IMG/VR virus record: IMGVR_UViG_3300033145_000557
Span: 1-26,479 of that record
Strand: one strand, 5' to 3'
DNA length: 26,479 bases
Source: a virus
Made by a program: the position numbers and the translations under genes
Part shown: positions 7,944 to 23,700 of the stretch, one piece after another
Layout: each line of letters starts with the position of its first letter
How positions within the stretch are numbered: position 1 is the first letter of the stretch
Notes under the pieces: model-generated
Seen by the model: only the letters and a program-made list of their open reading frames with translations
What the model was told of the DNA's origin: nothing
The model's database searches: none

Positions 7944-8624
7944 ATGTTTAAAACTACAGCGCTTGACAGCGTGGGAAATGCATATGTTGATGAGGTTGGT
8001 GTTACTCCGGGGACACGAATAGAAGCCGATGATCTAAACATCAAACAGGACGAACTTGTAAATGCTGTTGAAGCTGCGGGGTTGACACTGGACGCTGCGG
8101 GCGTTAAGCGCAGTCAGATAGCGCAAGCAATGTTTCTTAATGGCGTTGGCGCTCAATCAATGGATGATGGCGGTACTGCGAACGCAAAAATATTAACGCC
8201 CTCTACCGGAGCATCTGGCTATGTTTTTGGAGAGAACTACACACAATTAGATGGCGCACTTTTCGTTTTTAAAAATGTGGTATTAAGTACAGGTGCTGTC
8301 ACGATTGATTGTGGTCAAACTGCCGGAACATTACTTGGGGTTAAATCATTAACACTACCGGATGGTTCAGCTTTGACCGGAGGCGAATTATTAGCGGACG
8401 CCTATGTTCTAACCTTATACGATTTGGGCAATGACAGATTTGAGCTTGTTGGTACAGCAAAAGTTTCCGATGCTGTTTATGGCGCAGGATGGAATGGAGT
8501 GTTGGATATTGCGCCCAGCAAGAATGCTGTTTATAATAAGGTAGAACTTTTGGATGATGCTATAGCAGCAAAAGTTTCCGATGCTGTTTATGGCGCAGGA
8601 TGGAATGGAGTGCCGGAAAGGTAG
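7944..8624 (+). CDS. Tail fibre protein, N-terminal part (frame broken)
   Basis: The ORF starts after TAGGAGGTG and codes for 226 residues. The N-terminal 180 residues (TALDSVGNAYVDEVGV ... DGSALTGGELLADAYVLTLYDLGNDRFELVGTAK) look like a fibre attachment and shaft. A repeat of about 37 residues starting AKVSDAVYGAGWNGV then begins. The frame ends at TAG 8622 because an 80-bp tandem duplication (8538-8617 and 8618-8697) shifts it. Removing one copy would give a single 374-residue fibre ending at 9148. The gene follows gp48, the normal fibre position in Mu-like phages. As it stands the product would lack its receptor-binding tip. Confidence 0.75.
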   Translation: MFKTTALDSVGNAYVDEVGVTPGTRIEADDLNIKQDELVNAVEAAGLTLDAAGVKRSQIAQAMFLNGVGAQSMDDGGTANAKILTPSTGASGYVFGENYTQLDGALFVFKNVVLSTGAVTIDCGQTAGTLLGVKSLTLPDGSALTGGELLADAYVLTLYDLGNDRFELVGTAKVSDAVYGAGWNGVLDIAPSKNAVYNKVELLDDAIAAKVSDAVYGAGWNGVPER

Positions 8625-8697
8625 AACTTTTGGATGATGCTATAGCAGCAAAAGTTTCCGATGCTGTTTATGGCGCAGGATGGAATGGAGTGCCGGA
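8538..8697 (+). repeat. Perfect 80-bp tandem duplication inside the fibre gene
   Basis: Bases 8538-8617 and 8618-8697 are identical over 80 positions; each begins AAGGTAGAAC and ends GTGCCGGA. Eighty is not a multiple of three, so the duplication causes a frameshift, and exact removal restores one ORF from 7944 to 9148. It lies within an older in-frame 111-bp repeat: the AKVSDAVYGAGWNG unit begins at 8457, 8568 and 8648. Confidence 0.95.
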
Positions 8698-9148
8698 TAT
8701 TGCGCCCAGCAAGAATGCTGTTTATGATAAGGTAGAATTATTAGATGCATCCATCTCTGCAGCTGCGTCACGGGCAGAACAGGAAGCAGGGACAGAAGCT
8801 GCTAAATATGTAGCTCCAGCAACTCAACGATTTCATCCAAGCGCATGCAAGGCTTTTGTGGTATTCGATGGAGACCCGGTTGCGATTTTAGGCACTGATT
8901 ATAATGTAACTTCCATTACTGATTTGGGGGTTGGAGATTATAGGGTAACCTGGGACACTAATTTTTCCAATGTTAATTATGTTTGTATTGGGATGAATAC
9001 ATCAGCAGGATCTGGAGATAGTGAAACGATTTCCCAGAAAGCTGGAACACCTGCTGTAGGGGCAATAGACTTGCAATCAAGGCGAGCTTCAACTGGTGCA
9101 AGCATAGATCCTACCCATGTTTTCATAGCTGCATTTGGCGATCAATAA
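8600..9148 (+). CDS. Tail fibre protein, C-terminal part (frame broken)
   Basis: This open frame carries the rest of the fibre: the last repeat (AKVSDAVYGAGWNGVPDIAPSKNAVYDKVELL), a short coiled-coil-like segment (AAASRAEQEAG) and a C-terminal domain of about 110 residues. That domain (YVAPATQRFHPSACKAFVVFDGD ... VGDYRVTWDTNFSN ... HVFIAAFGDQ) is a common beta-rich tip domain of phage fibres. The ATG at 8600 has no good ribosome site (GCAGGATGG), so separate translation is doubtful. It more likely became separated from 7944-8624 by the 80-bp duplication. Making a whole fibre would need loss of one repeat copy or a frameshift during translation. Confidence 0.7.
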   Translation: MEWSAGKVELLDDAIAAKVSDAVYGAGWNGVPDIAPSKNAVYDKVELLDASISAAASRAEQEAGTEAAKYVAPATQRFHPSACKAFVVFDGDPVAILGTDYNVTSITDLGVGDYRVTWDTNFSNVNYVCIGMNTSAGSGDSETISQKAGTPAVGAIDLQSRRASTGASIDPTHVFIAAFGDQ

Positions 9149-12902: not shown

Positions 12903-13805
12903 ATGCTTAAACAGGGAATATATTTAGACACGCCGGATAAAGAATATCGCTCATGGCCAGCGATAAATTACAGCTCGCTTTCAAAGTTCAATGAGTCTCA
13001 AGACCACGCCCTCATGGACTGGCCGTCTAAAAGCTACTTTGAAGAGGGCTCAGCTTTTGAGCTTTTAATAGAAGATCGGGCCAAAGGGACGAAAAAGTTT
13101 GCCGAGCGGTTTTTTCTTGCCGATGCGCCAGGTGCAATGCCGGAAGATTTAGCAGGTTGGATTGAGGGCGAAGAAAATCTTGAAACGAAATACCGCCTTA
13201 AAAAAGACGGTAGTCTTAATATGCAATCCAAGAGACTGCACGGTTGGCTTGACGCTTGTCGGGACAACCCGGGCATGATGCCGATGGGTAAAGACCAGAT
13301 GGAAATGCTCAACAAGATGGTTGATAATTTCATGCTTTGCAAACCCCTTCTAGACATGGGTTCTGAAAACACGTTAGCCGAAATCCTGCCGCATTGCGAT
13401 TTTCAGGTACCGGTGCTTTGGTATGCGGGTAAAATGCGAAAGAAGGCGCTGCTTGATTGCCTCTTTGAGACAACAGAACGGATATATATCTTTGACATCA
13501 AGACTGCCGCTGATTTAACCAGATATCCATACGCATTGAAAGACTATGGATGGATTCAGGAGGTACATTACACGGCCGGGATGAAATCTATTTTTCCGGA
13601 CAAAGAGATCGTGTGGCGGTTTTTGGTATCCTCAAAAGCCGAGCCGTGGCTTGCACAGCCATTTCAGGTCGATCCATACAGCATATCAAGCGGCGGCATG
13701 GAAGCATATTATGATTTGTGTAAGCGGTATCAAGCGTGGATTGACGAAGGGAAGCAGCCGAAGGGTTGGAAAGAACTTGAAAAAGTAAGGATATTTTTTG
13801 AATGA
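12903..13805 (+). CDS. PDDEXK-type exonuclease (DUF3799/RecE-like)
   Basis: This 300-residue protein begins YLDTPDKEYRSWPAINYSSLSKF, the usual opening of phage RecE/Cas4-like nucleases. A GSAFELLI motif (49-56) is where these proteins carry G-x-x-x-H. The PD-(D/E)xK core is seen as KALLDCLFE (D185) and IFDIKTA (D198, K200), followed by WIQEVHYTAG (Q219, Y223). Such enzymes resect double-strand ends to give single strands for annealing proteins. It is coupled (ATGA) to the RecQ-like helicase and lies 1.2 kb before a probable annealing protein, a fitting set for recombination. Confidence 0.82.
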   Translation: MLKQGIYLDTPDKEYRSWPAINYSSLSKFNESQDHALMDWPSKSYFEEGSAFELLIEDRAKGTKKFAERFFLADAPGAMPEDLAGWIEGEENLETKYRLKKDGSLNMQSKRLHGWLDACRDNPGMMPMGKDQMEMLNKMVDNFMLCKPLLDMGSENTLAEILPHCDFQVPVLWYAGKMRKKALLDCLFETTERIYIFDIKTAADLTRYPYALKDYGWIQEVHYTAGMKSIFPDKEIVWRFLVSSKAEPWLAQPFQVDPYSISSGGMEAYYDLCKRYQAWIDEGKQPKGWKELEKVRIFFE

Positions 13806-15034
13806 AACAGCATGAAATACTAAAAACCATCTTCGGCCATGATGAATTCCTGTCGATACAATCTTCTGTCATTGGCAGCGTTTTGGCGGGCAAAGATACG
13901 TTAGCAGTAATGCCGACCGGAGCCGGGAAATCTCTTTGTTATCAAATACCGGCACTGGTATTCGATGGCTTAACGGTTATTGTGTCACCGCTGATATCGC
14001 TGATGAAAGATCAGGTTGACCAGCTTTCAAAGCTAAATATTCCGGCCGCATTATTAAACAGCGCATTGTTAGTCAAGCCATACCGGGAGAATATCGCAAA
14101 GCTAAAGAGCGGTAAAACCAAAATGCTTTATGTAGCGCCTGAAACATTTTTAAAGCCGGACATTTTAGAATTATTATCATTGGCAAGCGTAAATTGTATA
14201 GCGGTAGATGAGGCACATTGCATATCAAAATGGGGTCATGATTTTAGGCCGTCATACAGAAGAATATCACAGGCAAGAAAGCTCTTTAAAAACGCCGTGT
14301 GTATTGCATTAACAGCAACGGCAACAGAGCAGGTCAGGTTCGATATTCAAAAGAACCTTGAATTTGTAAAAGAAAATGAGTTTATCGCATCATTTGACAG
14401 ACCAAATCTGCTGATCAGAATAACTGGCAAGTGGAATCCAGTGAATCAAACCGAAAGCATCATAAGAAACAATGATGGAAGTTCCGGGATTATATATTGT
14501 TCATCACGAAAAACGACCGAATATGTAAGCAGGGCTTTATGCGAGGTCGGGCTTTCCGCAATTCCGTATCATGCCGGGATGAAGGCCAAAGACCGTGCCA
14601 AAAATCAAGAATTATTTATGGGTGGAGAAATTAAAATAATAGTCGCTACAACAGCATTTGGCATGGGCATTGACAAGCCGAACATCCGGTTTGTTATACA
14701 TTATGATTTGCCACAGTCAATTGAGGGTTATTATCAGGAGATCGGGCGAGCCGGGAGAGATGGCCTGTTCTCAGATTGCACTATGTTATTCAGCTCTTCC
14801 GATGTTTCAAAAATAAAATGGGCTATTCAGTTCAAAAAAGACCACGCTCAAAAGTTGGCAAACATACACTTGAGGGATTTATTGCAATTCATCAAATCAG
14901 GATCATGCCGAAGGAAATTGCTATTGAAGTATTTTGGAGAAAGGTATTTACAAGAAAATTGTCAGATGTGTGATAATTGTCTCATGGCGATTAAAGCAAA
15001 CACAAACAAATCAATTAATCGAAAAAGGAGCTAA
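13802..15034 (+). CDS. recQ-like: RecQ-like ATP-dependent DNA helicase, short form
   Basis: This 410-residue protein has the full RecQ helicase core: MPTGAGKS (Walker A, 37-44), DEAH (136-139) followed by the aromatic-rich CISKWGHDFRP loop, ALTATAT (169-175), and QEIGRAGRDG late in the second lobe. A zinc-binding part follows (C369, C387, C390, C393). The protein stops soon after, so the winged-helix and HRDC domains of the host enzyme (about 600 residues) are missing. It unwinds 3'-tailed DNA and could feed ends to the exonuclease encoded just before it (ATGA overlap). RecQ genes are uncommon in phage operons. Confidence 0.9.
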   Translation: MKQHEILKTIFGHDEFLSIQSSVIGSVLAGKDTLAVMPTGAGKSLCYQIPALVFDGLTVIVSPLISLMKDQVDQLSKLNIPAALLNSALLVKPYRENIAKLKSGKTKMLYVAPETFLKPDILELLSLASVNCIAVDEAHCISKWGHDFRPSYRRISQARKLFKNAVCIALTATATEQVRFDIQKNLEFVKENEFIASFDRPNLLIRITGKWNPVNQTESIIRNNDGSSGIIYCSSRKTTEYVSRALCEVGLSAIPYHAGMKAKDRAKNQELFMGGEIKIIVATTAFGMGIDKPNIRFVIHYDLPQSIEGYYQEIGRAGRDGLFSDCTMLFSSSDVSKIKWAIQFKKDHAQKLANIHLRDLLQFIKSGSCRRKLLLKYFGERYLQENCQMCDNCLMAIKANTNKSINRKRS

Positions 15035-15036
15035 AA

Positions 15037-16401
15037 ATGAAAAATGCCGGAAAAGATCAAAACCCATTTCACGCGCCCACAGTTTCAGAGGGCGCACAAG
15101 TCCCGATTGAGCAGCACAGAGCTATTCAGGAAGTTCAAGCAGCAATGATTATAGCCAAGAAGTTTCCACGGGACCAGCACGCTGCTTTTGATCGTATCAT
15201 GACCGCATGCGAACGGCCAAAGCTGGCCGAGGCCGCAAGTTATAATTACCCTAAAGGCAAAACGATGGTAACCGGTCCAACTATCCGACTCGCCGAAGTC
15301 ATGGCCCAGAACTGGGGAAACATGGAATTTGGTATCAGGGAGCTTTCCCAAGATGCCCATAGCTCAGAAGTCCAGGCATATGCATGGGACATGGAAACCA
15401 ACGTCAGGCAATCAAAAACGTTTGTCGTGCCACACAAAATGAAGGCGCATGGATCATTTAAAAAGCTGGATGATCCACGTGACATTTACGAGCATGTGGC
15501 TAACATGGGGGCCAGAAGATTGAGAGCTTGCATCCTGGGCGTTATCCCTGGTGATATTGTTGATGCTGCGGTCATTAAGTGCGAAGAAACCCTGAAAAAA
15601 GGTGACGGCAGGCCCCTGGAAGATATGATACGTGGCATGTTGGAAAAGTTTAAAAAAATAGAAATATCTAAAGAGTTGATCGAGGCCCGTTTACAGCATA
15701 AGTCAACGGCTATTGTGCGCTCTCAATTAGTTGAGCTTGGCAAGATATACAACTCAATCAAGGGCGGCATGAGCAAGCGGTCGGATTGGTTTGATGTGCC
15801 GAAATCGCAGCAATCCACAGAAGCTTCAGACCTAACCAAAGCAATCCAGAAAAAAACCGCTGAACAGAATGTGGAGCCAAAAGAGGAAAAACGGCCCACA
15901 ACGGAAAAGCTTGAACCGACAAGCGTTGAACATGAAACTACAGACCAGAAACCTATAAAAGTGGAGGAAATTATCACGCCCGATTTCCGCAGCGAATGGA
16001 TCAGGCTACAAGGCCCCGGATTTTCAACCTACTTCCATAAAAATCGGGCGGCGTTTGAAGCTGCATCAATTGAGATACAGGAAGAGGCTCGAGTTAAATG
16101 GTTAAAGCTGTATCCTGAAACGCCTTGGCCGCTTTCAATCGATAGTGAAATTGCTATAGACCTGTCAGAATACACAATTGAAGAATTAAACCGCATCCAT
16201 GCACGCATAGCCGCTATTGGCAAGGGGGCTGTTGACATTGTTGAGCGGGAAACTGGGTTGACCTGGGGCGCATGCAGGAACCATCCAGAAATGGCACGGG
16301 AATTTCTTTTAAATTGTTTTCAGGAATATCAGCGGTCTGGAAAAGACCCGGCGGTGTTTTTGTCGCCGAATAACGGGGACAGAGGGGAGGACTTGGTATG
16401 A
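15037..16401 (+). CDS. Probable phage recombination / single-strand annealing-type protein
   Basis: ATG 15037 follows AAAAGGAG. The 454-residue protein has a conserved-looking N-terminal part (EVQAAMIIAKKFPRDQHAAF, ERPKLAEAASYNYPKG, VTGPTIRLAEVMAQNWGN, FGIRELSQ, DPRDIYEHVANMGARRLRACILGVIPGD). It also has a low-complexity acidic and basic linker (about 265-315) and a C-terminal domain of its own. I know this N-terminal pattern from phage genes next to nucleases and SSB-like proteins, where it is taken for a RecT/Erf-type annealing protein; that function is inferred, not read from a catalytic motif. The exonuclease-helicase-annealing set supports it. Confidence 0.6.
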   Translation: MKNAGKDQNPFHAPTVSEGAQVPIEQHRAIQEVQAAMIIAKKFPRDQHAAFDRIMTACERPKLAEAASYNYPKGKTMVTGPTIRLAEVMAQNWGNMEFGIRELSQDAHSSEVQAYAWDMETNVRQSKTFVVPHKMKAHGSFKKLDDPRDIYEHVANMGARRLRACILGVIPGDIVDAAVIKCEETLKKGDGRPLEDMIRGMLEKFKKIEISKELIEARLQHKSTAIVRSQLVELGKIYNSIKGGMSKRSDWFDVPKSQQSTEASDLTKAIQKKTAEQNVEPKEEKRPTTEKLEPTSVEHETTDQKPIKVEEIITPDFRSEWIRLQGPGFSTYFHKNRAAFEAASIEIQEEARVKWLKLYPETPWPLSIDSEIAIDLSEYTIEELNRIHARIAAIGKGAVDIVERETGLTWGACRNHPEMAREFLLNCFQEYQRSGKDPAVFLSPNNGDRGEDLV

Positions 16402-17726
16402 GACTAAAACTTGAAGATATAATAATACAGAATTTTGCGAAGGTGTCATATATATCTGTCAGCTTTGACAAAAACTTGACCTACATTATCGGCGAAAACG
16501 GAGCAGGGAAAACAACAACCGGACTTAATGCTGTCTGGTTTTTGCTTAAAGGCTTATCCCAAAAAGGCGATGGCGTTATCGCTGAACGTTTCCGGTTTAT
16601 CGGGCCGCATGGGAAAAGTGCAAATGTTATAGGCAATCTCTATGATGAAAAAGAGGGTATTACTATCAACATCAGCCGGAAGCTCCTAAAAAATAGCACG
16701 GAGCTTAAAATCAAGGCGTCGGACGGACGGCAGCTTGACCAGAGGTGGCTCGACTCAATCTTTAATTCATTCCTTATTGACCCAATGGGATTTAGTCGGC
16801 TGTCCGGGAAAGCTCAGGCTTTGGCTTTTGGGGCTGATACCGCAAGGTTTAATACGAAGAAAAAAGAGCTTGAACTTGAGCGCCGGGACATTGGCCGGGA
16901 CGTGAAGCGATTACAGGGCGTGGTTGATTCGATGGTTGATTTGGAGAAAGTTGAACCTGTCAAGGTTGATGAATTAATGATCGAGCTAGAAAAGAGGCAG
17001 GGGTTAAACCGGGCACGAGATACCGCAATTGAAAGCCTTGAAAAGATGGACAAGGATTTTACAGCATCGGAACTGAACATCGAAATCATTAAAGGCGATA
17101 TTGAAAACCTGCGCCTCAAGCTTGTAAGGGCTAAAGCCGACCTTGATCGTAAAGATAAGGTCAGATGCGATAAGGCTAAAGAAGTAAAAGCTATGAAAAT
17201 TGCCGATGAACAGGAGGTTAAAGATCAGATTACAGAAGCCGACCAGGTCAACAAGAAGGCCGCTGATTATGAATCTTTCCGTGAAAACGAAGCCGCCCTT
17301 GAAGATATAAAGCTTAAGTATGAAAGCAAAGCGGTTGCGATTAAGGATAATGAAACTAACCGCACCGAATACTTGAAATCTCTGAAGCTACCATGGCCGA
17401 ACATCTCAATAAACGATGAAGGCGAGTTCCGGCTGAACGATAAGCCGTTTTGCGCTCCATATTTCTCAACCGGAGAAATCCTTAAATTCGGTGCCAGAAT
17501 CGGCAGTAAATTAAAAGGCGGCTTAAAATATGTCTATTTTCCGAATTCCGATTCCCTGGATGATAAAAACCGGGAAGCTGTTTTTAAGATTTTGACCGAT
17601 GACGGGTTCCAGATTGTGGCCGAATCGGTCAGGCCTGTGAACAAAGAAGATGTGGCGACCATCACGCTGAAAGAGATGAAGGTCGTTGAACCTTACGATG
17701 AAAGCGGGGGAGATGGATTGAAATGA
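16398..17726 (+). CDS. SMC/SbcC-RecF-like ATPase
   Basis: This 442-residue protein overlaps its neighbours by ATGA on both sides. It begins LEDIIIQNFAKV and has IGENGAGKTTTG (Walker A, 32-40). It then has a long charged helical arm (about 150-330, with many E, K, D and L), then a signature-like FSTGEILKFGARIG (356-369) and a Walker-B-like strand KYVYFPNSDSLDD (377-389). This is the layout of a small SbcC/RecF-type ABC ATPase without a zinc hook. The acidic Walker-B residues are not at the usual place (PNSDS), so ATP hydrolysis may be altered. It probably works on DNA ends or recombination intermediates. No SbcD-like nuclease is encoded beside it. Confidence 0.78.
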   Translation: MRLKLEDIIIQNFAKVSYISVSFDKNLTYIIGENGAGKTTTGLNAVWFLLKGLSQKGDGVIAERFRFIGPHGKSANVIGNLYDEKEGITINISRKLLKNSTELKIKASDGRQLDQRWLDSIFNSFLIDPMGFSRLSGKAQALAFGADTARFNTKKKELELERRDIGRDVKRLQGVVDSMVDLEKVEPVKVDELMIELEKRQGLNRARDTAIESLEKMDKDFTASELNIEIIKGDIENLRLKLVRAKADLDRKDKVRCDKAKEVKAMKIADEQEVKDQITEADQVNKKAADYESFRENEAALEDIKLKYESKAVAIKDNETNRTEYLKSLKLPWPNISINDEGEFRLNDKPFCAPYFSTGEILKFGARIGSKLKGGLKYVYFPNSDSLDDKNREAVFKILTDDGFQIVAESVRPVNKEDVATITLKEMKVVEPYDESGGDGLK

Positions 17727-18055
17727 AAAAAATCTATTTAGCTGCACCATATGTTCACAAAAACCCTGACATCAGAGCACAAAGGGTTGAAGCCGTTAAT
17801 AAAAAAGCCGCTGAGTTAATGATGTCCGGCAATCTTGTTTTCAGCCCGTTATCACACTCACATCCGATTTCAGAGCATTGCGTTGTTGATCCTTGTGACC
17901 ATGATTTCTGGTTGCGTCAAGACTTGTGGATTCTGGCTATCTGTGATGAGTTTCATATTTTGTGTCTGGATGGCTGGACTGAATCAAGGGGGATTGATAC
18001 CGAATATCAACGTGCGCAGGATTTGAGAAAACCGGTGGTTTATCATGCAATATAA
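17723..18055 (+). CDS. DUF1937 / nucleoside 2-deoxyribosyltransferase-like protein
   Basis: This 110-residue protein opens with MKKIYLAAPYVHK, the first strand of the family. It has VFSPLSHSHPIS, DHDFWLRQDLWILAICDE and WTESRGIDTEYQRAQDLRKPVVY, all hallmarks of DUF1937, a branch of the deoxyribosyltransferase fold. The acidic residue in TESRG and the SPxxHSH block line the presumed base/sugar pocket. In phages such proteins may change nucleotide pools or modified bases, but the substrate is unknown. It overlaps both neighbours. Confidence 0.82.
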   Translation: MKKIYLAAPYVHKNPDIRAQRVEAVNKKAAELMMSGNLVFSPLSHSHPISEHCVVDPCDHDFWLRQDLWILAICDEFHILCLDGWTESRGIDTEYQRAQDLRKPVVYHAI

Positions 18056-21000
18056 CGATTTTCTGAAAACAAAGATATGCATCGGGGACTTGCAGGGTTT
18101 TTCGGTAAACAAAAACCAGCTAAACCCGATATTATTGCCGCATCAAAAAGACATATCCATCTGGGCGCTGGCCGGTGGCCGCAGGGCCATTTTTGCATCG
18201 TTCGGCCTTGGCAAGACATTTATGGAGCTGGAAGTTTTAAGGCTGATCGGTCAAAAAGAAGGCGGTCGACAACTCGTTATAGCTCCCCTGGGCGTACGAC
18301 AAGAATTTAAGGTCGATGTTGAAAAACTGGCAGCCGGTAACGATCCGAATATAACCGATGAAAAGAGACAAGAGCTTGAAATTTGGAAAAAAGACAACCA
18401 GGTTTTAACAGAAATAAAATTCATACGCAGAAACGATGAATTGACAGACGATGGATTATATATCACTAATTACGAAAGCATCCGGGACGGTCGCCTTGAT
18501 ATAAATATGTTCAACGGTGTCAGCCTTGATGAAGCATCTGTCTTGCGATCGTACGGCTCTAAAACATTCCAGAACTTCCTAACATTGTTCCAAAATATCA
18601 AATATAGATTTGTAGCAACAGCTACCCCTTCACCAAACCGATACAAAGAGCTTATTCATTATGCCGGATTTTTGGGCATTATGGATACAGGACAGGCCTT
18701 GACTCGATTCTTTCAGCGGGATAGCAAAAAAGCTAATAATTTGACGATATACCCGCATAAAGTTGAAGAGTTTTGGTTGTGGATATCGAGCTGGGCTATC
18801 TTTATTCAAAAACCGTCTGACCTTGGATATAGTGACGAAGGCTATGAGCTACCCGAACTTCGAATCCATTACCATGAAGTTAAATCGGATTCTGAAAACT
18901 TTGCCGATAAAAATGGGCAGGTAATGATGTTTTCGGACGTTGCCATGTCACTACAGGCCGCATCTAAAGAAAAAAGGGAGTCGATTAAAAAGCGGGTTGC
19001 AAAGGCTGCTGAAATCGTTGCGCATGATCCTGACAGACATTTTATTTTGTGGCATGACCGGGAAGCTGAACGCCATGAATTAAAACGGCAAATTGCCGAC
19101 GTTACGGATGTTTACGGCTCCCAGGACTTAGAGATAAGAGAAGATCGAATAATCAATTTTTCAATCGGAAAGTTCAAACGGCTGGCGACTAAGCCAATAT
19201 TGTCAGGTAGCGGTTGCAATTTTCAGAGGCATTGTCACACGGCCATATTCGTAGGGGTTGGCTTTAAATTTAACGATTTCATCCAAGCAATTCACAGAAT
19301 CCACCGCTTTTTACAGCTGAAGAGATGCGATATTCACCTGATCTATACAGACCGGGAAAAGAGCGTTTTGAGAGTTTTAGAAGGCAAGTGGGTTCGACAT
19401 AACGAAATGGTGGAAAAAATGACAGAGATTATTAAGAAATATGGGCTATCACACAAAGAAATGGCCGGAGAGCTAAAAAGATCAATCGGAATTGAGCGCC
19501 TGGAAGTCAAGGGCGAAAAATTCACGCTTGTAAATAATGACAGCGTTGAAGATAGTAAAACGTTAGAAGAAAATTCGGTCGATTTGATTTGCACATCAAT
19601 ACCGTTTGCGAATCATTACGAATATACTCCCTGTCATGATGAAAAAACAGAGGTCCTTACAAAAAGAGGGTGGATTTATTTTAAAGATTTAACGATGAAC
19701 GATTATATATCAACGGTAAACAAAAAATCCCTTGTTGCAGAATGGCAAAAACCTTCCGAGGTCATTTATAAACATTATAATGGTGAAATGATACATTTTA
19801 GAGAGCGTAACAGCATTGATCTTATGGTTACACCTGATCATAAAATGCTTGTCGATAATCGTGTTGGAAATCACAAATCAGGTAGAAAAACAAAACAATT
19901 TAAATTAATTTCAGCGCAAAACTTAAGCGATAATTATGTGTTTAGAAAATGGCAGATGGTAACGACTTCTATTCCAGGCACCGGCGATTATCCCAAAAAC
20001 GTTGCGATGCCGAAATGCGACCACCGAAAGGGCGTTAAAATTATACAGAAATTAAAAACAGAAGATGTTATGGAATTAGCGGGCTGGTATATTTCGGAAG
20101 GGCATTGCAGGTATTCAGAAAATAAACAGAGACGGGGCGAAATAACAATATCTCAAAGCCAGAGCGCAAATCCTATTTATAGAAACGAAATAATAGATCT
20201 CTTTGACAGGCTCGGGCTTAATCCAAACTGTAATAATAAAAAAAACATTACAGGGTGGAATATTAATATAGCTGAATTTTTAAGAAATGAATTTGGCAGC
20301 GGTAGTTATAATAAAAAAATTCCACAATGGGTTAAGGCACTGCATCCTGATTTACTCAAAATACTCAGAAATACAATGATGAAGGGCGATGGTAATTCTA
20401 ACGGACTTGCCTATACTTCTTTTAGCCACAAACTTTGTGATGATTTCCAAGAGATATGTTTTTTTACTGGATGGAGGGCATCTGTTTCTAAAAACATTGT
20501 GAGAATCGGCCAAAAAAATAAATACCCTGAAATTAGAAACAGGCCCATAAAAACTAACTATAATGGAATGATCGGGTGCGCGACCGTGCCAAATCATACT
20601 TTGGTTACAAGAAGAAACGGCAAGATTATTGTGAGTGGAAACTCATATAACGATTTCGGCCATACATCAACAAATGATCAGTTTTGGGAGCAGATGGACT
20701 TTTTAACTCCGCAGCTATTAAGAATTTTAAAACCGGGTAGGATTTATGCTTGCCATACTAAAGACCGTATTTTATTTGGTAATGCAACTGGAAAGGGTGC
20801 GCCTACCGTTTCACCGTTTCATGCAGAGGCTATTTTTCATGCTCAAAAGCACGGCTTTGATTATATGGGCATGATCACTGTTGTTACCGATGTTGTACGT
20901 GAGAACAACCAGACATACCGGCTCGGATGGACGGAAAATTGCAAAGATGGTACTAAGATGGGTGTTGGCTCACCGGAATATATATTGTTACTCCGAAAAC

Positions 21001-21617
21001 CACAAACAGACCGGTCAAGGGCGTATGCTGATGAGCCGGTTGTTAAAAACAAGAAAGACTACACACGTGCTAGGTGGCAGGTAGACGCTCATGCCTTTTG
21101 GAGAAGTTCCGGGGACAGGCTTTTAACATACAAGGAAATGGAAGGATACGGGCCGGATGTGTTATGTAGACTTTTTACTCAGCGCTCCCTTGAAAATATT
21201 TATGATTATGAATCTCATATAAAAATCGGGGAGTCTCTCGAATTAAATGGCCGATTGCCGGCTTCTTTTATGGCAATCGCACCGGGCAGCCACAATGCGG
21301 CAGTGTGGCACGATATAAACCGGATGTTCACGCTCAACAGCGCACAGAAACGGCGCAACTTACAAATGCACGTTTGTCCGTTACAGTTTGATATAATAGA
21401 TCGGCTGATTGTCAGATATTCAAACGAGGGCGAAATGGTTTATGATCCGTTTTGCGGTATTGGTTCGGTACCACTTCGGGCTCTCAAACTGAAAAGGCGA
21501 GCTGCAGGTTGCGAACTTAATGCTGATTATTTTTTAGATAGTGTTCGATATTGTCAAGCAGAAGAGCGAAGCGCAAAACAGATAACATTATTTGATTTTG
21601 AAAATTTAAATAACTAA
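18045..21617 (+). CDS. SNF2-type helicase / DNA methyltransferase fusion, interrupted by an intein
   Basis: This is a 1190-residue ORF; removal of the 337-residue intein leaves 853. The N-terminal 480 residues are a superfamily-2 helicase with FGLGKT (53-58), LDEAS in motif II (161-165), ATATPSPNR in motif III (191-199) and QAIHRIHRFLQ as motif VI. The C-terminal part is a beta-class amino-methyltransferase. Motif IV is TSIPF (517-521) and motif I, DPFCGIGSVPLRA, starts at D1134, so the catalytic motif comes before the AdoMet motif. Such enzymes make N6-methyladenine or N4-methylcytosine. The middle position of the usual (S/D/N)PP(F/Y) is Ile here. It overlaps the DUF1937 gene and sits before rusA. 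A phage self-modification or replication role is likely; the recognised sequence is unknown. Confidence 0.87.
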   Translation: MQYNDFLKTKICIGDLQGFSVNKNQLNPILLPHQKDISIWALAGGRRAIFASFGLGKTFMELEVLRLIGQKEGGRQLVIAPLGVRQEFKVDVEKLAAGNDPNITDEKRQELEIWKKDNQVLTEIKFIRRNDELTDDGLYITNYESIRDGRLDINMFNGVSLDEASVLRSYGSKTFQNFLTLFQNIKYRFVATATPSPNRYKELIHYAGFLGIMDTGQALTRFFQRDSKKANNLTIYPHKVEEFWLWISSWAIFIQKPSDLGYSDEGYELPELRIHYHEVKSDSENFADKNGQVMMFSDVAMSLQAASKEKRESIKKRVAKAAEIVAHDPDRHFILWHDREAERHELKRQIADVTDVYGSQDLEIREDRIINFSIGKFKRLATKPILSGSGCNFQRHCHTAIFVGVGFKFNDFIQAIHRIHRFLQLKRCDIHLIYTDREKSVLRVLEGKWVRHNEMVEKMTEIIKKYGLSHKEMAGELKRSIGIERLEVKGEKFTLVNNDSVEDSKTLEENSVDLICTSIPFANHYEYTPCHDEKTEVLTKRGWIYFKDLTMNDYISTVNKKSLVAEWQKPSEVIYKHYNGEMIHFRERNSIDLMVTPDHKMLVDNRVGNHKSGRKTKQFKLISAQNLSDNYVFRKWQMVTTSIPGTGDYPKNVAMPKCDHRKGVKIIQKLKTEDVMELAGWYISEGHCRYSENKQRRGEITISQSQSANPIYRNEIIDLFDRLGLNPNCNNKKNITGWNINIAEFLRNEFGSGSYNKKIPQWVKALHPDLLKILRNTMMKGDGNSNGLAYTSFSHKLCDDFQEICFFTGWRASVSKNIVRIGQKNKYPEIRNRPIKTNYNGMIGCATVPNHTLVTRRNGKIIVSGNSYNDFGHTSTNDQFWEQMDFLTPQLLRILKPGRIYACHTKDRILFGNATGKGAPTVSPFHAEAIFHAQKHGFDYMGMITVVTDVVRENNQTYRLGWTENCKDGTKMGVGSPEYILLLRKPQTDRSRAYADEPVVKNKKDYTRARWQVDAHAFWRSSGDRLLTYKEMEGYGPDVLCRLFTQRSLENIYDYESHIKIGESLELNGRLPASFMAIAPGSHNAAVWHDINRMFTLNSAQKRRNLQMHVCPLQFDIIDRLIVRYSNEGEMVYDPFCGIGSVPLRALKLKRRAAGCELNADYFLDSVRYCQAEERSAKQITLFDFENLNN
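19632..20642 (+). mobile_element. Intein with LAGLIDADG homing endonuclease (337 aa)
   Basis: In-frame insertion from C530 to N866 of the fusion protein. Block A starts at the Cys (CHDEKTEVLTKRGW). Block B has TPDH (intein residues 67-70). The LAGLIDADG copies are ELAGWYISEGH (148-158, acidic E156) and ILRNTMMKGDG (244-254, D253). The C-terminal block has VPNHTLVTRRNG and ends VSGN, with Ser as the first residue after it. The penultimate residue is Gly, not the usual His. It lies 8 residues after the TSIPF motif, so the methyltransferase needs splicing to work. All splice and endonuclease marks are present, so it may be active. Confidence 0.93.
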
Positions 21618-22305: not shown

Positions 22306-23700
22306 ATGGAAGCGCTGATTGTTTTAACATTAATTTTTATGTCCGCATTGCCGCGCATCTCTCATAGATTTTCAATGCCGGGCTCTTTTGCATTGGCAAT
22401 ATCATTTCCGGTAGTTCTCTGGATGTATTCGATTCATGGTATTGGATTGCATGTTACGTCATACATGGCTGCCTTGGTTGCTGGTATTGTCTTTGAGCTG
22501 ACCATATCAACCATCCTCTCAGATCGTCCTGATATGGCCATAAAACATTTAATCATCTATTCCGCAGCCGTATTTATCGGCGTGGCGTTTGCCGGCTATG
22601 ACATTTGGTTAATTGTTATATGCTTAGCTATTATTCATTGTATTTTTATCTGTGTTCCGTTGGAGTACAAAAACGCCGGGCTATTGGGAAACCCTAATTT
22701 CGCAGGCGCGTTTTTAGCTCCATGCGTTTTTATAGCATTTTATATTAATGAGCCATTAGCCGTTATTTTATTGGTTATAGTATTGCTTAAAACTAAATGC
22801 AAGGGCGGCATGGTTGGGCTCGCCATAGGGTCAATATTTATCCGACCTGAATTGCCTATAATTCTATCCGTGGTATTATGGTCCTTTGTTTTCAAGCATG
22901 GATTAAAATCACATAATAGTTTACAGGTAAGGTTCGAGATGTGGAAAGCATCGTTTAAATATATGACCATAAAGCAATTGTTTTTCGGTATTGGCGGTGA
23001 TGTTGGCAGGATATTATTTATGAGGGACAGGCACGCAAAGAACAGATTTAGACGGCTTCATTCCGATATAGTTCAAGGCATTTTTGACGGTGGTATGTTT
23101 TACGTCATTTTATATCTTTGGATCGGGATATATTCGATCACGATAGCTCCGCCCGCATTAGCTGCGGCATTGTTAAGCCTAATGGTTGCCGGTCTCTTCG
23201 TAGATACGCAACTGGTTCATTTCACATCAGCCCTGTTTTGGCTGCTTGTGGGCCAGATAAGCTTTTCGTCCACTCCTGCCGTTATCGTGGCGCCATGGAT
23301 GCTACCGGTTGCGATTATCATCTTTATCTTGGTCATTCAAACCTGGGGCAGGGCTTTTATTGCAGATACGATACACGGTATAGCATTTAAGCGTGGTGAT
23401 GGAAAACTCATGGCCATTGCTCACAAGATTAATCCGTCAGATGACCTCGCAACGGCCAGCCTGGTAGGCGCAATGATTCTGTCAAAGCAACATGGCCCTG
23501 CCTTCGATAGAGCGTGGAAACTGGTTGATAGATATAACGGTGATTTGCAAGCAGAAATACCATATTATCTCTTAGCATTAGCTTCGTTTAATATCGGGGC
23601 ATGTTCAATCTCAAGGGCCATGGTGCGGCAATGCCTCGTTTATTGTGACCACGAAGGGGCGAAGAAGCTATTGGGGGAGATTGAGAAGAGGGGATTATGA
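22306..23700 (+). CDS. O-antigen ligase/polymerase-like membrane protein
   Basis: This 464-residue polytopic membrane protein has about ten hydrophobic segments in the first 360 residues, with GGAGGT 9 bases before the ATG. Marks of the WaaL/Wzy family are LLGNPNFAGAFLAP (126-139), a KCKGGMVGLAIG segment where the family often has SRGG, R209-x3-W213, FFGIGGD (226-232), and a periplasmic LHSDIVQGIFDGG (251-263). The C-terminal 100 residues are soluble and helical, like a TPR tail. Such proteins attach or polymerise O-antigen sugars. A phage copy could change the host surface and block superinfection. No other sugar gene is nearby. It is the last gene before the cassette array. Confidence 0.68.
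   Translation: MEALIVLTLIFMSALPRISHRFSMPGSFALAISFPVVLWMYSIHGIGLHVTSYMAALVAGIVFELTISTILSDRPDMAIKHLIIYSAAVFIGVAFAGYDIWLIVICLAIIHCIFICVPLEYKNAGLLGNPNFAGAFLAPCVFIAFYINEPLAVILLVIVLLKTKCKGGMVGLAIGSIFIRPELPIILSVVLWSFVFKHGLKSHNSLQVRFEMWKASFKYMTIKQLFFGIGGDVGRILFMRDRHAKNRFRRLHSDIVQGIFDGGMFYVILYLWIGIYSITIAPPALAAALLSLMVAGLFVDTQLVHFTSALFWLLVGQISFSSTPAVIVAPWMLPVAIIIFILVIQTWGRAFIADTIHGIAFKRGDGKLMAIAHKINPSDDLATASLVGAMILSKQHGPAFDRAWKLVDRYNGDLQAEIPYYLLALASFNIGACSISRAMVRQCLVYCDHEGAKKLLGEIEKRGL

Follow-up and report, generated by a model that had tools for sequence, protein, structure and literature searches.

The window, a 26,479-base (26.5 kb) metagenomic virus fragment from IMG/VR, carries on its forward strand an open reading frame at 18045-21617 that encodes 1190 residues and runs open throughout, with no stop or frameshift. 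The encoded protein joins a SNF2-type helicase to an N6/N4 DNA methyltransferase and has an in-frame insert lodged inside. The helicase is detected by Pfam SNF2-rel_dom (26 bits, cut-off 24.9) and the methyltransferase by N6_N4_Mtase (48 bits, cut-off 26.7), and the phage helicase family phrog_16 matches the frame at E 1.7e-122, in keeping with the helicase-methyltransferase named in the first-pass annotation of this DNA. The N-extein (18045-19631) holds the helicase domain and the start of the methyltransferase, including TSIPF (19593-19607), a motif IV-like motif that is (nearly) invariant among aligned homologues and whose probable catalytic role follows from the motif order of N6/N4 methyltransferases. 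The C-extein (20643-21617) starts with Ser+1 of SYNDFGH and comprises the remaining methyltransferase, including motif I, DPFCGIGS (21444-21467), whose DPF.G pattern is conserved among homologues and which by homology would bind SAM. The encoded enzyme is predicted from its sequence to have methyltransferase activity. Once spliced, the protein would measure about 853 residues. Uninterrupted homologues of the gene are 51-61% identical, and identity to such homologues calculated for the exteins on either side of the insert spans 45-61%. A megablast of the window against phages returned no nucleotide relatives.

Several other features lie in the window. A phage-encoded RecQ-like helicase with a zinc-binding domain is found at 13802-15034, close to an AAA/SMC-like ATPase (16398-17726). 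The protein encoded at 22306-23700, 464 residues long with numerous hydrophobic stretches and flanked by a RusA-like resolvase on one side and small ORFs on the other, has no match in Pfam or PHROGs. The region 8538-8697 is a perfect 80-base tandem duplication, a length that is not a multiple of three, positioned where a tail-fibre-like frame splits into 7944-8624 and 8600-9148; faulty assembly or recent slippage may account for it.

Intein sequence and predicted structure

The insert occupies residues 530-866 of the frame (19632-20642, 337 residues), a segment without counterpart among homologues. Eight residues separate TSIPF, at residues 517-521, from the first residue of the insert, Cys1, at residue 530. 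The intein N-terminal model TIGR01445 scores the insert alone at 26.5 bits, above its curated cut-off of 24.5; tblastn aligns it over its full length with the annotated intein of corynephage P1201 ThyX (E 2e-24, 27% identity); and a six-member family profile retrieves solved endonuclease-bearing inteins from the PDB, with PI-PkoII at E 1.9e-14. Because of these three matches, the resemblance is not due to chance. A search of viral contigs with the single intein sequence gave no match, but an alignment-based search did find relatives. Fifty-eight viral inteins align with the insert at 26-36% identity, the nearest of them no closer than 33-36%, and the residue counts below are taken from that alignment, which has 59 rows.

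Blocks A, B, F and G of an intein are all present. Cys1 (19632-19634), the predicted nucleophile of the first splicing step, is Cys in 59/59 rows. In block B, the TxxH motif reads TPDH at intein residues 67-70 (19830-19841), with H70 kept in 59/59 and T67 in 52/59. Position 4 of block F (F:4) is C316 (20577-20579; Cys in 51/59), H322 follows, and the intein terminates in Gly336-Asn337 (20637-20642) ahead of Ser+1, the terminal Asn being kept in 58 of the 59. Each of the two LAGLIDADG motifs carries its acidic residue: E156 in motif 1, LAGWYISEG (20076-20102; E or D in 57/59), and D253 in the MKGDG of motif 2 (20388-20390; D in 57/59). Lys228 (20313-20315), also in the endonuclease domain, is K in 57/59. 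With the Pfam model LAGLIDADG_3, the insert scores below the cut-off.

The AlphaFold model of the intein (pLDDT 89.6, pTM 0.90) adopts a HINT fold, with Z up to 25 against solved inteins. Over residues 1-337 it aligns with PI-PkoII (Z 25.1), TliVMA (Z 24.9) and PI-SceI (Z about 20), and its endonuclease fold matches those of I-DmoI and PI-SceI. Sequence and predicted structure together indicate that the insert is a full-length intein whose two-motif LAGLIDADG endonuclease is apparently intact. The first-pass annotation had described a full intein of this kind, with both acidic residues and placed eight residues past TSIPF; its coordinates and length prove exact, and profile, fold, splice residues and intein-free alleles all agree with it. 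The GC content of the intein, 35.6% compared with 42-43% in the exteins, is below that of 99% of same-sized segments of the record, which is consistent with separate acquisition; AT-rich coding could account for it too. A decayed element, no longer splicing and leaving the methyltransferase either dead or working with the insert retained, would fit the single copy found among the matches listed, but the uninterrupted frame, the full complement of splice and endonuclease residues and the conserved motifs retained in both exteins make decay very improbable.

Class 1 inteins have Cys or Ser at position 1, and Cys1 together with TxxH marks the insert as a putative class 1 member. Class 3 membership was considered and rejected, as the Cys1 nucleophile is present and the WCT positions B:12, F:4 and G:5 are M72, C316 and S335. 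A small probability is kept for class 3-like splicing, in which C316 instead of Cys1 would take the first step, because the AceL NrdHF intein (PDB 6zgq, PMC7891396) is the best match among structures consisting of a splicing domain only (Z 16.4, rmsd 2.0 Å, 143 residues). The two inteins share a Met at B:12, which in AceL NrdHF replaces the Trp of the WCT triplet, a Cys at F:4 that most relatives of the insert also possess, and the absence of a penultimate His (PMC7891396). However, AceL NrdHF is split, lacks an endonuclease, begins with Ala1, was placed in class 3 by mutagenesis and is 19% identical to the present intein. Cys1 is moreover universal among the aligned relatives, the class 1 Thr is kept in block B, G:5 is Ser rather than Thr (relatives mostly have Ser or Cys), and Cys ranks as the second commonest F:4 residue across inteins overall (review, PMC4031507).

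The C-terminal Gly-Asn had been singled out as a less common end than His-Asn, a view that does not survive comparison. Among 69 viral relatives gathered via a motif in block F, 63 end in Gly-Asn and four in Ser-Asn, a share that describes this group and not all inteins; one odd row, L115, has a frame disturbed at its end. The inteins of Dorothy_75 and P1201 likewise end in Gly-Asn. In mycobacteriophage inteins the penultimate His is poorly kept, and an RDF intein with Gly at this position splices completely, whereas its Gly-to-His mutant needs over 5 h to reach about half (Kelley et al., PMC5050341). Since Gly-Asn is the majority end of the group and the Gly-bearing RDF intein splices completely, this end is no oddity and no hint of slow splicing.

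Insertion site and uninterrupted homologues

The insertion site was inspected in about 90 homologous loci drawn from IMG/VR and phage genomes. All are uninterrupted, and many show YTP-SYN, the intein-free junction that the first-pass annotation had proposed as a check; removal of the insert thereby restores a conserved host protein. Across 486 phage records that match the whole protein, coverage of the query peaks at 72%, equal to the share of the exteins; no record attains 80%. Because the homologues are uninterrupted and the phage matches cover the extein share only, the insert is an addition to a conserved protein. Three further viral loci, which show the N-terminal junction pattern, lack an intein and naturally have Cys as the next residue. 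The C-terminal junction pattern gave 0 matches in viral contigs and two chance matches, in unrelated genes, in genome contigs. The present record is the sole example of an occupied YTP/SYN site (the slash marking the insertion point) among the matches listed, the scan of viral homologues covering the best 80 of at least 600 candidates. Occupation of YTP/SYN was not found in the publications consulted, and the site is apparently new. Such an isolated distribution points to recent selfish insertion rather than to a retained regulator.

The model of the methyltransferase, of middling confidence (pLDDT 73) and used for this placement only, positions the site in a loop that follows the motif IV strand, and because of this location the intein-bearing precursor is probably inactive. 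Of the earlier proposal that the enzyme is split at its active site until splicing occurs, the break of the precursor beside a catalytic motif is a reasonable deduction. The companion proposal, that DNA modification is delayed or controlled, is unsupported. Native inteins insert on average 8.3 Å from active-site residues, compared with 21.1 Å for other Cys/Ser/Thr sites (PMC3359363), and because insertion near active sites is usual, the position of the site alone is no evidence for the timing of DNA modification.

Splicing tuned to redox state, temperature or infection stage could in principle delay DNA modification, given that the site adjoins motif IV and the precursor is probably inactive, and other inteins are reported to splice conditionally (PMC6195587, PMC5790916). 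Such a conditional intein is nevertheless most unlikely here: nothing in the sequence indicates a sensor, proximity to active sites is the general rule (PMC3359363), the single phage intein with a Gly-Asn end to have been tested splices to completion (PMC5050341), and the isolated distribution at the site suggests a recent selfish insertion. It is likewise hardly probable that the intein is a kept switch, with the methyltransferase active only upon splicing triggered in infection; if true, the phage would time its own DNA methylation.

Relation to known inteins

Two phage DNA methylase inteins, DNMT-1 and DNMT-2, were reported in 2016 (PMC5050341), and that of the Dorothy_75 phage methylase was studied in 2023 (PMC9957025). 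Job42 gp69 and Rita gp73, from cluster F mycobacteriophages, belong to the same helicase-methyltransferase family and contain a class 1-type intein with an endonuclease-type domain, which by description appears to be the DNMT-1 of Kelley et al. 2016 (PMC5050341); the RefSeq annotation of Job42 gp69 is ribonucleotide reductase. This intein differs from the present one in its site, MHV/CPLQFD near motif I, about 240 extein residues downstream of YTP/SYN, in its Lys-Asn end and in its sequence, the two being about 22% identical. MHV/CPLQFD, seen in L008 and L009 (Job42 and Rita), is a second, unrelated-looking intein site in the family.

The Dorothy_75 intein (PMC9957025) resembles the present one in its LAGLIDADG endonuclease, its phage DNA methylase host, its Gly-Asn followed by Ser and its broad sequence group, but its host methylase has no helicase domain, its site is WLYG/SGFPKS and it is 26% identical. 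The P1201 intein, among the best annotated phage matches, agrees in Cys1, the F:4 Cys and Gly-Asn/Ser, but resides in a thymidylate synthase. The Bethlehem gp51 RDF intein (PMC5050341), likened by description, is a class 1 phage intein with a penultimate Gly, shown to splice completely, but interrupts another host protein.

Viral inteins of the same group also lie in methyltransferase-like proteins. One (L109, 2501-3547) directly follows DPPY, and another (L163, 2501-3469) is situated between DPFMG and SGTTG. Further related inteins (L126, 2501-3592; L128, 613-1662; L138, 2501-3565) occur at or near catalytic motifs, and the sites in such proteins include a shared G/TRT. The best plasmid match (L096, 1501-2565; LC711081.1; E 5e-34) outscores the best phage match and sits in a radical SAM protein encoded on a plasmid of an uncultured archaeon.

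Discussion

As read from sequence and structural models, the phage helicase-methyltransferase very probably carries a mobile class 1 intein. The 1190-residue precursor would be translated whole. Cys1 would then attack the Pro-Cys junction, with the N-extein passing to Ser+1, and Asn337 would cyclise, leaving the exteins joined as TSIPFANHYEYTP-SYNDFGH. The embedded LAGLIDADG endonuclease would cut intein-free alleles at the conserved DNA of the site loop, and repair of the cut allele would copy the intein in. Since a single occupied allele was found among the matches listed, movement at YTP/SYN is predicted rather than observed. The unspliced methyltransferase, interrupted in the loop that follows motif IV, would probably be inactive, which would favour the keeping of a splicing-competent intein; regulation is not required.

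In conclusion, the intein itself is ordinary and occupies an apparently new site within a known target. An apparently unreported insertion site is thereby added to a phage enzyme family already hit by inteins elsewhere, in line with the repeated occurrence of this group of inteins at catalytic motifs of methyltransferases, as in L109 and L163. Gly-Asn is the norm in this large viral intein group and should not be flagged as odd.
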